Assembly (NCBI GenBank): GCA_023267975.1
Contig: JALNLA010000001.1
Span: forward strand, 310,001-374,000
Reading direction: 5' to 3'
DNA length: 64,000 bases
Source: Candidatus Terraquivivens ruidianensis
GTDB lineage: Archaea; Thermoproteota; Nitrososphaeria_A; Caldarchaeales; Wolframiiraptoraceae
The notes below the pieces were generated by a model, which searched no databases, was not told where the DNA came from, and was given only the letters and a program-made list of their open reading frames with translations. Below are positions 51,750 to 56,908 of this stretch, piece after piece (position 1 is the stretch's first letter; each line of letters starts with the position of its first letter). The translations under genes and the position numbers were made by a program.

Positions 51750-52601
51750 TTGACTTCTGTCATTTCTTTTCAGCATGCACGAGGCGGCTCTGGCACTTCG
51801 CTCATTTCTATGATTAGCGCAAAGATCCTCTCAAGCTTTGGTAAGGTTGCTTTGCTGGAAATGGACTTCCTTAACCCTCTGCTACATCAAGTCTTTCCGC
51901 AAAAAACCTTGAAGGCACACGTTAACGACTTTATCTTTGGTGAGGCAAGCTTGGACGACGTGCTGGTAGACGTCGGACAAGAGGTTGATGCGAAGCCGAA
52001 GAATTTTTGGGTTGCTTACATGAATCCGCTTGAGGGCGCGAGGAAGAGGATGGAGTTTGCCGACGCTACACGGGATAAGCGGATAACTAAGACTTTTGAG
52101 AACGTTAGTTGGAGGGTCGAAGGCATGCCTTTAGACTTTGTTATGCTTGACATGGCACCGTGGAGTAACTACCTTAACGACATAACATCCATAATATCGG
52201 ATGTTGTATTCTTTATCATAAGGCCGAGCAGACTAGAGCTTACGTTGTTCCTCCATAGGTATGCAACGCAGCTCTCTCGTATAATAGCGAAGGTTGTGCC
52301 CATAATCAACTTCTGCCCTTCGGATGACGAAGAATATGTCCAGATGATTATTAAGAGATTACAGGAGAATTGTCCAGAATGTAAGAACGTTATCACCATA
52401 CCGTATTACCAAGACCTTGCCTCGGGTCCAAGCAAGAAGCTAATCAAAGATTGCTCGCATCCTATATGCCGCGATTTAAGTAAAGCTATACTCAGTCCCG
52501 TCCCTAGAGAGAAGCCTTTTTTCAAAAACTCAAAAAACCATGAAACAAACGGACTAGTGGAAAGGTTGCAGGCTATCCACTATCCTGAAAAAACTCCCTA
52601 A
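51750..52601 (+). CDS. MinD/ParA-like protein with an altered P loop
   Basis: A 283-residue SIMIBI-type protein. The deviant Walker A position reads ARGGSGTSL (10-18): the signature lysine is R11 and the second lysine is T16, so normal ATP binding and hydrolysis look impaired. VALLEMDFLNP and LDMAPWSNYL are the switch regions, with later NFCPSDDEEY and a CPECKNV pair of cysteines. The C terminus is lysine-rich. Function is unknown, perhaps a regulatory or structural relative of ParA. It is near atpF and cannot be tied to it. Confidence 0.7.
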   Translation: MTSVISFQHARGGSGTSLISMISAKILSSFGKVALLEMDFLNPLLHQVFPQKTLKAHVNDFIFGEASLDDVLVDVGQEVDAKPKNFWVAYMNPLEGARKRMEFADATRDKRITKTFENVSWRVEGMPLDFVMLDMAPWSNYLNDITSIISDVVFFIIRPSRLELTLFLHRYATQLSRIIAKVVPIINFCPSDDEEYVQMIIKRLQENCPECKNVITIPYYQDLASGPSKKLIKDCSHPICRDLSKAILSPVPREKPFFKNSKNHETNGLVERLQAIHYPEKTP

Positions 52602-52977
52602 AGTTTAGTATCCTGAGGGTCTCCGGCTCCGTTAGCTCTAGCCCATGGAGCACCCTTCCGAGCCTGTGGAGACCGTAGAAAACTTGTCTTACCGGTATGG
52701 GTTTAGGGAACTTCTCCATCGAATCAAAGTCTATCCTGAGTGTCCAACCCCTCCTTATGCACATCCTTATCTCCTCTTCCTCCATGTCCTTCAGGTGCAC
52801 TACGTCCTTAATCCTTCCGTAACCCACGAATGAGTCCACGTTTTTCTTCATTATAAAGAAGACCATGCTTCCGGGCTCGAACTTCCTCTTCAGGCCTGTG
52901 TAGTACCTCCTCTTGGAGAAGACATGCTCCTCGTTGTTTTCCCCGACAATCCTAAGGATGAAAGCGTTCGCCGTCAT
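52573..52977 (-). CDS. PUA/EVE-like domain protein
   Basis: A 134-residue protein resembling EVE/PUA-like folds: AFILRIVGENNEEHV, KFEPGSMVFFIMKK, GYGRIKDVVHL, and a closing arginine-rich WTLRIDFDSMEKFPKPI. It shares the small-domain topology with 16414-16863 but little sequence. RNA or modified-base binding is an inference. It overlaps the MinD-like gene's end by 29 bp on the opposite strand. Confidence 0.65.
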   Translation of the reverse strand: MTANAFILRIVGENNEEHVFSKRRYYTGLKRKFEPGSMVFFIMKKNVDSFVGYGRIKDVVHLKDMEEEEIRMCIRRGWTLRIDFDSMEKFPKPIPVRQVFYGLHRLGRVLHGLELTEPETLRILNFREFFQDSG

Positions 52978-53865: not shown

Positions 53866-56373
53866 TTAAGAGGGTAGCGCTCTGCTAAGGCTTGAAGCTC
53901 GGCTTTTTCGGTATGCTCTTCTGGCCAGAAGTAGCAGGAGTGCGAAAGGCAGGAATGCTAAAACGTTCTCGGGTATCACGAGGTAGGTGTATTTGCCGGT
54001 ATATCCCGTGTACATGGTTATAGGTACACGTACGACTCTAACACCTCCCGGTAATTCTTCTACTATAAATGACTGGTGTTGGAACCTGAGGTGTATGTAG
54101 CAGTTGGTACACGTCGGTAGGTTCACGGGCACGAAGACATCCTCCTCAAAGTCGCCATAATAAGTACCGCTGAAAGAACCGCTTCCTATTTGTGTGCCCA
54201 AGTTGTTGGTATCGGGTGAGACATAAACATCAACATAACCTGTCATAAAGCCTTTTTTATTACTCACCCCGGCGAAGTGGAAGACCCAAGTCCCATCGTC
54301 TGAATCCTCAAAGTTATAGGTTGACTCAGACCTCCAATAATAGTATGTAGATGAACTCAAACTTTGGGAACCGGATGGTTGGGTCGTACTCATCGTACCA
54401 CTTCCTACTGTGGTGCCACCGTTGGGGTAAAGGTACAGGGTCTGATAAGGCACGTAGGCTTGAGCCTGCTGTATCGGCTGGAAGCTCACGAGAAGCATGA
54501 GCGACGTCGTCACGAATAATATGCCAGCCTTCCTCAACATGGAGGAATCTGGGCCGAACCTCGAACCGTAGAAGAGGAGCACTCCCAAGCAAGCAGAAGC
54601 CAGGGCAGAGGCCGCATCGTAGAGCACAAGGGGCCCCATACCGAGGAGAAGCCTTAAGGGAATGTAGGAGGATACTACTGCCACGACGCTGATGAGTAGC
54701 CTCGGCATCATGGCTCCGATTCGGATGCTTCGGCCCATCAGCCAAACGAGCGTGGCGATTCCCACGGATATGCTGGCCATCAAAATGGCGTACTCGGCCG
54801 GTTGTGGTATCCTGCTCCCTGACCCTTCGATGCTCGTCAGCAAGAGCTTAAGGAGGGCGTAGGCCAAGAAGGAGGATAGGAACGATAGTATTGCGCAGGA
54901 TACTATCCCTGACCTCTTCTTCATCGATTGCCTGCCCCTGAAGATTTTCCTGATGATGAACGCAAAGATGCCCTCGGTAATCTTTCCGGTCTTCAGCGTC
55001 CTGAACCAAGCAGACTCCTTTTTACTAAACAGCCCCTTGAGCGCAGCCATTGCCTGAAAGGTTGCCAAGACATGCATGAGCGGAATGAAGGTGAAAGCTC
55101 CCTGCCAATGCCTAGACGCCCTGTACTCTAAGTATAGACCAGTCAGGTTGACGAGTGGTATGGCCATCATGTTGGTGAGCAGTAGCGACCACCCGAAAAT
55201 CGAGGTCCAGAACGGTATCTTCACCCTCAGGACTTCCGCAACCAACCATACGACCGTCCCAAGGATGAGGAACAAGCTGCTGAGGTAGTATGGGGATAGG
55301 TAGAGAAATTCCAGCTTCTCCCTCAACGATAAGAACTTGCTCCTAAGTATCTCCATGAAATAACGCTTCACAGCAAAGGTGTGGCCTTCAGCCCATCTTG
55401 CCCTCTGCCTAATCAGCGACATAAGGGTGGCGGGGCACTCGGCGGGCGCAGCTGCCAGCTGAGTGTACTTGACCTTGTAACCGTCCCGATAAAGCCTGAG
55501 CGTCAAGTCCCAGTCCTCCGTCAGGCTGTCCCTCCAGCCATACTGGCGTAGTATGTCGGCCCTTATCATGAAGACGCTACCTGATATCATACGCATGCCC
55601 AGCATCAAATCGTTCACGAGCAACCTCTCAACCAAGTAGTTGCCCGCGTACTCGGCGCTCACGGCCTTCGTTATCCAGTTCTCGGAAGCGTTCAGGACGT
55701 GCCACTGGTAACCTTGAACTACAACGATCTCCCTAGAGCTGTACAGCTCGTCCAACATCTTACGTATGCCTCTGCCGTTCAGTTGACCGTTCTCGTATCC
55801 GTTACCGAATTCGTTAAGTAGCCTCTGGATTATGTCCTTTGGTGGTATGAAGTCTGCATCGAATACAACGACGTACTCCGCCTCATCGCTCATGAACTTG
55901 AGCGCCTCACGTAGCGCTCCACCTTTGAAGCCGCTCCTACTCTTCCTGTGGATTATCTTCACGCGCGGGTCTTTTTCATAGCGTCTCAATATGGTGGGCG
56001 TCGAGTCGGTCGAGTCGTCCACGACGATGACCTCGTATTTCGGGTAGTCCAAGGAAAGGAGAGCTTCCATGAGCCTCGCCGCAACCTTCTCTTCGTTGTA
56101 GAGGGGTATGTGGATACTCACCATCGGATAGTAGCCGTTACCTAAGGGGTCGGTAGTGCCGCCGTTCGTGTTGTGCCCGTTGTGCCTTAACTTTATACCG
56201 CCGTTCGTGTGGAATTTGTTGTTTCCGTTACCGTTGTTTCCATTCCTCTTGAAAAGTATGTAGGCCGTATATGCCAGCGCTAGATAGTACCTTATCGCGT
56301 ACGTAAAGAAGAGTAAGCCGAATGCCAGGCTGAAGTACGGTAGTAGCTCAAGCACCTGCAACGCTATCGCCAC
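53866..56373 (-). CDS. Membrane family 2 glycosyltransferase with exported C-terminal domain and sorting-like tail
   Basis: An 835-residue protein. After an N-terminal membrane stretch and an Asn/Gly-rich segment (43-80), the GT-A domain has VVDDS (118-122), DAD (172-174), TED (285-287) and QRARW (323-327), a full processive-type GT2 set. Further membrane segments follow to about 640, with AQAYVPY resembling a signal-peptidase site. Residues about 645-795 form an exported, beta-rich, Thr/Ser-rich domain with TCTNCY. The tail is IPEN (800-803), a hydrophobic run, and RRAYRKSR, like exosortase/archaeosortase signals. The upstream archaeosortase gene overlaps the start by 26 bp. Product polymer unknown. 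Confidence 0.85.
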   Translation of the reverse strand: MAIALQVLELLPYFSLAFGLLFFTYAIRYYLALAYTAYILFKRNGNNGNGNNKFHTNGGIKLRHNGHNTNGGTTDPLGNGYYPMVSIHIPLYNEEKVAARLMEALLSLDYPKYEVIVVDDSTDSTPTILRRYEKDPRVKIIHRKSRSGFKGGALREALKFMSDEAEYVVVFDADFIPPKDIIQRLLNEFGNGYENGQLNGRGIRKMLDELYSSREIVVVQGYQWHVLNASENWITKAVSAEYAGNYLVERLLVNDLMLGMRMISGSVFMIRADILRQYGWRDSLTEDWDLTLRLYRDGYKVKYTQLAAAPAECPATLMSLIRQRARWAEGHTFAVKRYFMEILRSKFLSLREKLEFLYLSPYYLSSLFLILGTVVWLVAEVLRVKIPFWTSIFGWSLLLTNMMAIPLVNLTGLYLEYRASRHWQGAFTFIPLMHVLATFQAMAALKGLFSKKESAWFRTLKTGKITEGIFAFIIRKIFRGRQSMKKRSGIVSCAILSFLSSFLAYALLKLLLTSIEGSGSRIPQPAEYAILMASISVGIATLVWLMGRSIRIGAMMPRLLISVVAVVSSYIPLRLLLGMGPLVLYDAASALASACLGVLLFYGSRFGPDSSMLRKAGILFVTTSLMLLVSFQPIQQAQAYVPYQTLYLYPNGGTTVGSGTMSTTQPSGSQSLSSSTYYYWRSESTYNFEDSDDGTWVFHFAGVSNKKGFMTGYVDVYVSPDTNNLGTQIGSGSFSGTYYGDFEEDVFVPVNLPTCTNCYIHLRFQHQSFIVEELPGGVRVVRVPITMYTGYTGKYTYLVIPENVLAFLPFALLLLLARRAYRKSRASSLSRALPS

Positions 56374-56908
56374 CAGTGCGCGTGCTGATGAACCAGAAGA
56401 GCATGAGCCAGCCGAACGTGACGAAGCTACCGAAATAGTCGTGGAATATTATGGCCGGACCTTTTCCAACGTATACGGCTATGAGAGCTACGAGGGCTAT
56501 CCTAAGTATGTTTACTAGGATTGTTCCCTGAAGGCCTACCAAGGTCGTCGTGAGCTTTCCGAGAAGGGATGAGGACGATTCCTTAAGGACGAGGTAGGAT
56601 ATGGCCGAGAATATCACGATGCTCTGCCAGCCTATGCAGTTCCAAGCTATGTACAGGGCAATTGCTCCGCCCGGCGCATTTAGGTAAACGATGGGGCCCG
56701 ACAGCGTAGCCTCGAGCCCGAAAAGGGCCAGCATGGATGCCGTGAAGCGTGCCACGAGCGGAGCGATGTACGTCTCTATAAACCACCATAGGCCGATCGA
56801 CTTTATAATCTCCGTGAGAAACTCGTTAAAGGTGATGTAAAAAGGCATGATTATAAGGGTAAACGACGCGGCTATGAGAAGTACGGCGTAGCCCCTTTCT
56901 TCCCTCAA
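56348..56908 (-). CDS. Archaeosortase/exosortase family protein
   Basis: A 186-residue membrane protein with about six segments and the triad of the family in order: C91 in AWNCIGWQS, R136 in NILRIALV, and H156 in FHDYFGSF. These proteases/transpeptidases cut proteins with a C-terminal short motif, membrane helix and basic tail. The gene is directly upstream of the glycosyltransferase, which has such a tail, overlapping by 26 bp. This suggests a dedicated enzyme-target pair, though not a proven one. The subfamily is not decided. Confidence 0.88.
   Translation of the reverse strand: MREERGYAVLLIAASFTLIIMPFYITFNEFLTEIIKSIGLWWFIETYIAPLVARFTASMLALFGLEATLSGPIVYLNAPGGAIALYIAWNCIGWQSIVIFSAISYLVLKESSSSLLGKLTTTLVGLQGTILVNILRIALVALIAVYVGKGPAIIFHDYFGSFVTFGWLMLFWFISTRTGGDSVAGA

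Follow-up and report, generated by a model that had tools for sequence, protein, structure and literature searches.

A probable dedicated archaeosortase system in two archaeal classes whose substrate module is joined to the neighboring GT2 membrane synthase

The window analyzed here is a 64,000-nucleotide stretch of contig JALNLA010000001.1, from a hot-spring archaeon that genome kinship places in the same genus as the aigarchaeote Candidatus Terraquivivens tikiterensis. On its minus strand, the gene for an archaeosortase is followed and overlapped by the gene for a family 2 glycosyltransferase (GT2), a membrane synthase carrying an exported C-terminal domain that ends in a candidate sorting tail with the motif IPEN. 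The two genes probably represent a dedicated archaeosortase system, present in two archaeal classes, in which the substrate module is fused to the partner GT2 synthase, and the link between archaeosortase and substrate is unusually well supported for a sequence-based prediction. The system is provisionally called dedicated on the basis of the one exosortase-family (PF09721) gene and the one IPEN tail in the genome, the genome-wide tail scan having covered I-P-E-N only. The targets and the attached moiety are unknown for most exosortase and archaeosortase families, and their long-noted association with polysaccharide genes is unexplained. Here, an archaeosortase, a single predicted substrate, and a putative polysaccharide synthase form one unit, which offers a minimal two-gene system for asking how an archaeosortase acts on its substrate and why archaeosortases travel with glycan synthases. 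The features of the unit in the window are as follows.

56348..56908, minus strand: archaeosortase/exosortase-family membrane peptidase (PF09721 and TIGR04178 above cut-off; triad invariant)
56636-56638, 56501-56503, and 56441-56443, minus strand: C91, R136, and H156, respectively, the archaeosortase triad
56348..56373, minus strand: 26-bp overlap of the archaeosortase and glycosyltransferase (GT) reading frames
53866..56373, minus strand: GT2 membrane synthase with an exported C-terminal module (PF13641/PF00535; alignments of homologues)
55384..56127, minus strand: cytosolic GT2 catalytic domain, residues ~83-330
54484..54909, minus strand: extra transmembrane bundle, residues ~489-630, between the GT core and the exported domain (AlphaFold helices; hydropathy and positive-inside pattern)
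54457..54537, minus strand: last helix before the exported domain, signal-peptide-like (LRKAG-hydrophobic-QPIQQAQA), with a candidate signal peptidase site after A639 (AxA-like site in homologues)
53983..54456, minus strand: exported jelly-roll domain, residues 640-797, with a conserved CxxC at 755-758 (AlphaFold; Foldseek)
53965..53976, minus strand: IPEN motif, residues 800-803, proposed to be recognized by the archaeosortase
53923..53964, minus strand: hydrophobic segment after IPEN, residues ~804-817 (hydropathy; model helix from ~residue 807)
53866..53922, minus strand: basic C-terminal end (RRAYRKSRASSLSRALPS), then the stop codon (basic in all homologues)

The candidate sorting tail

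The GT ends in I800-P-E-N803, a hydrophobic run, and RRAYRK, and this agrees with the preliminary description of the locus, which had assigned the tail the three-part form of exosortase and archaeosortase substrates; the tail has the general makeup of a tripartite sorting signal. IPEN is unchanged in all five available homologues from the order, even though the exported domain is just 27% identical to that of one of them (G016); IPEN, or its PE, is what stays conserved in a tail that otherwise varies. The organism's own genome contains 13 12-mers coding for I-P-E-N, and a hydrophobic run and a basic C terminus follow in frame after 1 of them. Among the fetched loci, strict PE-type tripartite tails were found in 19 of the 55 open reading frames (ORFs) that encode an archaeosortase or touch one, compared with 6 of 316 other ORFs (p=8e-13, homologues not being independent), and three of these six also adjoin archaeosortases, missed by the motif used for scoring. 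A chance origin of the tail was rejected on the grounds of the single in-frame IPEN tail, the retention of IPEN despite divergence, the PE in every GT from a second archaeal class (see below), and this enrichment. An identity as PEP-CTERM was also rejected; the TIGR02595 model gave no match to the tail at E<=10, and the motif is PEN rather than Pro-Glu-Pro. The predicted sorting tail is of a new kind.

The archaeosortase

The archaeosortase ORF encodes 186 amino acids from a TTG start and scores above the curated cut-offs of both PF09721 (49.2 bits versus 25.7) and TIGR04178 (47.1 bits versus 23), which places it in the exosortase/archaeosortase superfamily. C91, R136, and H156, named in the preliminary description, are invariant in the alignment of 6 close and 8 wider homologues and correspond at the sequence level to the conserved Cys, Arg, and His of the superfamily. 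None of the cut-offs of the named subfamilies (ArtC, ArtE, ArtF, XrtG, thaumarchaeosortase, and others) was reached, with scores of 29.1 bits for ArtE (cut-off, 95), 27.5 for XrtG (102.75), 22 for ArtF (150), and 23.2 for thaumarchaeosortase (250), and an identity as a named archaeosortase was rejected accordingly. A sequence search of solved structures returned no match to the protein. By its profile scores, the archaeosortase belongs to an unnamed, new family.

The archaeosortase gene precedes the GT gene, whose ORF encodes 835 amino acids from a GTG start. The ORF coordinates bear out the 26-bp overlap reported earlier, which would shrink to 14 bp if the next TTG starts the GT. Overlaps of the archaeosortase and GT genes are also present in relatives.

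The GT2 synthase and its exported domain

The full GT2 catalytic set claimed in the preliminary description is upheld by the PF13641 and PF00535 matches and by the motifs D119/D120, D172xD174, T285-E-D287, and Q323-R-x-R-W327, all of which are invariant in 16 GT relatives. The fold, the D, DxD, TED, and QxxRW motifs, and the membrane helices are those of the processive GT2 enzymes BcsA, PgaC, and HAS, and the window GT is predicted to be processive. The nearest solved sequences to the catalytic domain are chondroitin and cellulose synthases. The PgaC model is matched below its cut-off (101.7 versus 422.3 bits), as are those of the XrtG-associated GT (TIGR03111, 41.3 versus 363.95 bits) and the XrtP-associated GT (NF053846, 65 versus 520 bits), and an identity as either of the latter two was rejected because the curated cut-offs were missed. 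The product of the GT is probably a cell surface glycan, which is likely to be extruded.

The number of helices between the GT core and the exported domain is 5 in the window (AlphaFold) and, by hydropathy, ~3 in G016 and ~1 in the second archaeal class. As these counts are odd, the exported domain is expected to stay outside. The alternating positive charges point to the same topology, in which the exported domain and IPEN face outward and the basic end is on the inner side. In the AlphaFold model of the exported domain (predicted local distance difference test [pLDDT] score mostly >90), the region that the preliminary description had called beta-rich is a compact jelly-roll sandwich, followed by a disordered loop at IPEN and then a helix. 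The best Foldseek match is the jelly-roll part of a CocE-type esterase (E 2e-7, TM ~0.5), and the next are the carbohydrate-binding modules (CBMs) CBM36, CBM28, CBM4, and CBM6 (E ~5e-4 to 2e-3), which makes a glycan-binding role plausible. Pfam and NCBIfam searches of the exported domain and tail gave no match.

The helix preceding the exported domain ends in a small residue, any residue, and Ala in all five order homologues (QAQA, QVQA, HTQA, QASA, and PTEA). In the window GT, the candidate site is QAQA, before Y (residues 637-639), and AxA-like sites are also present in most GTs of the second class. AxA-like sites are common, and for this reason we consider only that a signal peptidase may cut after A639.

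Co-occurrence within the order

Of the 44 genomes surveyed in the order, 6 have an exosortase-family gene, and in each case it is this archaeosortase. The GT with its domain and tail lies downstream in five of these six, with the GT frame split by a frameshift in G004; the sixth genome, G039, has the archaeosortase at a contig end. No close GT homologue was found in the 38 archaeosortase-negative genomes (0/38), whose GT2s show 29-34% core identity and no tail. The archaeosortase-linked GTs are a discrete group, with 48-88% core identity, compared with the 29-34% of other GT2s. The 44 genomes were searched for what the preliminary description had regarded as telling against a substrate relation, a close GT homologue that retains the tail where no archaeosortase is present, and none was found. 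In G002 and G005, from the same genus as the window organism, the V-ATPase locus is intact and lacks the archaeosortase, the GT, and the neighboring ATPase described below.

The metagenome-assembled genome (MAG) of Ca. Terraquivivens tikiterensis (G004) has the V-ATPase locus twice (L173 on G004:C14 and L032 on G004:C37, 97.9% identical over 334 bp), and one of the two contigs carries the archaeosortase-GT cassette while the other is without it. This suggests either that strains differ in carrying the cassette or that the assembly is mixed.

Recurrence in a second class and the separable module

Relatives of the window archaeosortase are also present in another archaeal class, scoring 134-285 bits against the family profile, compared with <=65 bits for other archaeosortases. 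Where the contig allows, the neighbor is a GT2 belonging to the discrete group described above (core identity with the window GT, 48-55%), in reversed gene order, with the GT ahead of the archaeosortase. All of these GTs terminate in [F]PG-x-x-x-PE-x followed by a hydrophobic run rich in proline and then by basic residues.

The exported module of G095 is a separate protein of 276 amino acids with a signal-peptide-like N terminus and an IPEN tail, and its gene lies between those of the archaeosortase and a GT that lacks the tail; the window counterpart of this signal peptide is the internal helix with its AxA-type end. In addition, one or two archaeosortases in G214, G420, G426, G439, G443, G461, and G473 carry a fused exported domain whose tail is similar, the motif being PE, SE, EE, or DE, and the same genomes also hold tail-less archaeosortases. 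A peptidase with its own exported domain and tail would resemble its own substrate. The module is found free in one genome, GT fused in most, and peptidase fused in several, forms that are hard to explain unless it is the substrate, and we read it as the archaeosortase substrate. The preliminary description had taken the sugar polymerase itself to be the target. The archaeosortase-substrate link in that claim is supported, whereas the substrate is better seen as a separable exported module, as in G095 and the archaeosortase fusions.

The tail-less GT of G095 (L084:8073-10844) has long inserts of repeated charged segments (ELDRSFAEDQITTDEYL-like) in and after its catalytic region. Loci L083, L137, L139, L140, L142, L143, L146, and L148 hold tandem archaeosortases, of which one or two bear an exported domain and a sorting-like tail of their own.

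Proposed mechanism and alternative explanations

From these features, we infer the following course of glycan synthesis, recognition, cleavage, lipid attachment, and signal peptidase cutting. The GT2 protein would make, and probably extrude, a cell surface glycan. Its C terminus would be a former free archaeosortase substrate, consisting of a signal peptide, the jelly-roll domain, a PE-type motif, a hydrophobic segment, and a basic tail. After export of the jelly-roll domain, the neighboring archaeosortase would recognize the IPEN tail at the outer face of the membrane, cut near PE, and put a different anchor in place of the tail, a lipid being the likeliest, in line with the proposal for Haloferax ArtA. 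The lipid is suggested by analogy because the substrates of Haloferax volcanii ArtA are lipid anchored (PMC7157517). The signal-peptide-like helix may be cut as well, which would free the domain from the GT.

Several observations weigh against this explanation. Other PE tails of the organism lie outside the I-P-E-N scan, existing CTERM models searched with the tail gave no match, and the third motif residue varies in the second class (N, R, S, K, A, or Q). The AlphaFold model of the full-length GT is of low confidence (pLDDT 56.5), too weak to place the tail relative to the channel, and was therefore kept out of the fold search, and the carbohydrate-binding role of the exported domain is suggested by its fold similarity. 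The strongest rival, which we regard as unlikely, takes the tail for an uncleaved BcsB-like anchor that completes the GT channel, with the jelly-roll guiding the polymer and the archaeosortase acting elsewhere. This would fit the jelly-roll with its CBM-like matches and the linked MinD-like ATPase, which recalls BcsQ in Bcs systems, but the same tail is found on the stand-alone protein and the archaeosortase fusions, where no built-in GT part is possible; the PE motif is what stays constant in the tail, and gains and losses of the GT coincide with those of the archaeosortase.

The archaeosortase might instead join the exported domain to the GT's own glycan, or to a glycolipid, in a self-contained machine that would make it an archaeal glycan-coupling sortase. 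The enzyme, polymer source, and substrate do form one physical unit, the exported domain has a CBM-like fold, and exosortase-family enzymes are thought to be transpeptidases that leave the cut end bearing a new moiety (PMC11980579). This outcome seems improbable, as the studied archaeosortase substrates are lipid modified (PMC7157517), no sequence feature suggests a sugar acceptor, and the G095 domain is not part of the GT. Finally, the two genes could merely share a surface glycan operon, the tail being a coincidental anchor and the true substrates lying elsewhere in the genome; exosortases are often found among polysaccharide genes without a direct role in the polymer (PMC1569441). The linkage is kept across classes despite the reversed gene order, the genome has a single IPEN tail, and PE tails are concentrated beside archaeosortases, all of which make an explanation by linkage improbable.

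Comparison with known systems

Like ArtA with its PGF-CTERM substrates, the window system pairs an archaeal membrane peptidase of the Cys/Arg/His type with a tripartite tail on an exported protein (PMC7157517, PMC11980579), but ArtA has several substrates and the motif PGF, whereas the window has PE(N) and one adjacent candidate fused to a GT2. The PE-type motif, transmembrane helix, and basic cluster are shared with the exosortase/PEP-CTERM systems (EpsH and XrtA), whose exosortase genes also lie near glycan genes (PMC1569441); the window system differs in its third motif residue, N (or R, S, K, A, or Q, in relatives), in having one predicted target instead of many, and in that this putative substrate is part of a GT. 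The XrtG- and XrtP-associated GTs (TIGR03111 and NF053846) are PgaC-like GT2s named for their association with exosortase-family enzymes, but their models span ~440 positions without an exported domain or tail, whereas the window GT itself bears the candidate sorting signal. BcsA-BcsB with BcsQ likewise combines a GT2 synthase, an exported beta domain, a C-terminal membrane anchor, and a MinD-like ATPase partner (PMC7439463); the window GT differs in being one polypeptide with a PE motif and an archaeosortase partner, and its exported domain has no Pfam match. One processing enzyme adjoining one target is also known from single-target rhombosortase/GlyGly-CTERM genomes (PMC3237569), but the enzyme family is different, and the predicted target forms one polypeptide with a biosynthetic enzyme in the window and with the peptidase in relatives.

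Neighboring genes and other archaeosortase loci

Two further genes lie close to the archaeosortase-GT pair in the window.

51750..52601, plus strand: MinD/ParA-like ATPase, probable system partner (co-occurrence)
52573..52977, minus strand: small conserved protein between the GT and the ATPase (recurrent neighbor)

Within the order, the ATPase occurs in every one of the six genomes with an archaeosortase and in 3 of the 38 without one (p ~1e-5, uncorrected for kinship), and in the second class, an ATPase homologue adjoins the GT. Enterobacterial cellulose synthesis needs the MinD-family ATPase BcsQ (PMC7439463), to which the window ATPase may be likened by analogy, with no claim of membership. 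Strict membership of the ATPase in the system was softened to a probable partnership, as three order genomes have it without an archaeosortase. The small protein, for which a Pfam search gave no confident family, also accompanies the ATPase where the genome has no archaeosortase (L166-L169) and occurs alone in G002. Near the archaeosortase in G016 (L034:2567-4756), G039 (L094:3264-5870), and G095 (L084:13054-15720) lie large membrane proteins whose matches to PTPS_related (PF10131) are weak to moderate.

Other associations of archaeosortases with GTs and secreted proteins were also observed. In G065, a GT4-family glycosyltransferase is fused to an archaeosortase-like C-terminal domain in a 706-amino-acid protein (L086:6911-9031, minus strand), and the match in G254 also lies within a 706-amino-acid frame, as in this GT4-archaeosortase fusion. 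In G061, a short ArtF-like archaeosortase overlaps a GT2 gene whose product has neither exported domain nor tail (L085:5221-7196, minus strand). Thaumarchaeosortase-like enzymes in L087:5308-7431 (minus strand), L088:5388-7532 (minus strand), and L089:5391-7465 (plus strand) each lie beside one secreted protein ending in FSGL(I/V)IPE(F/I), in what is apparently a further single-target arrangement.
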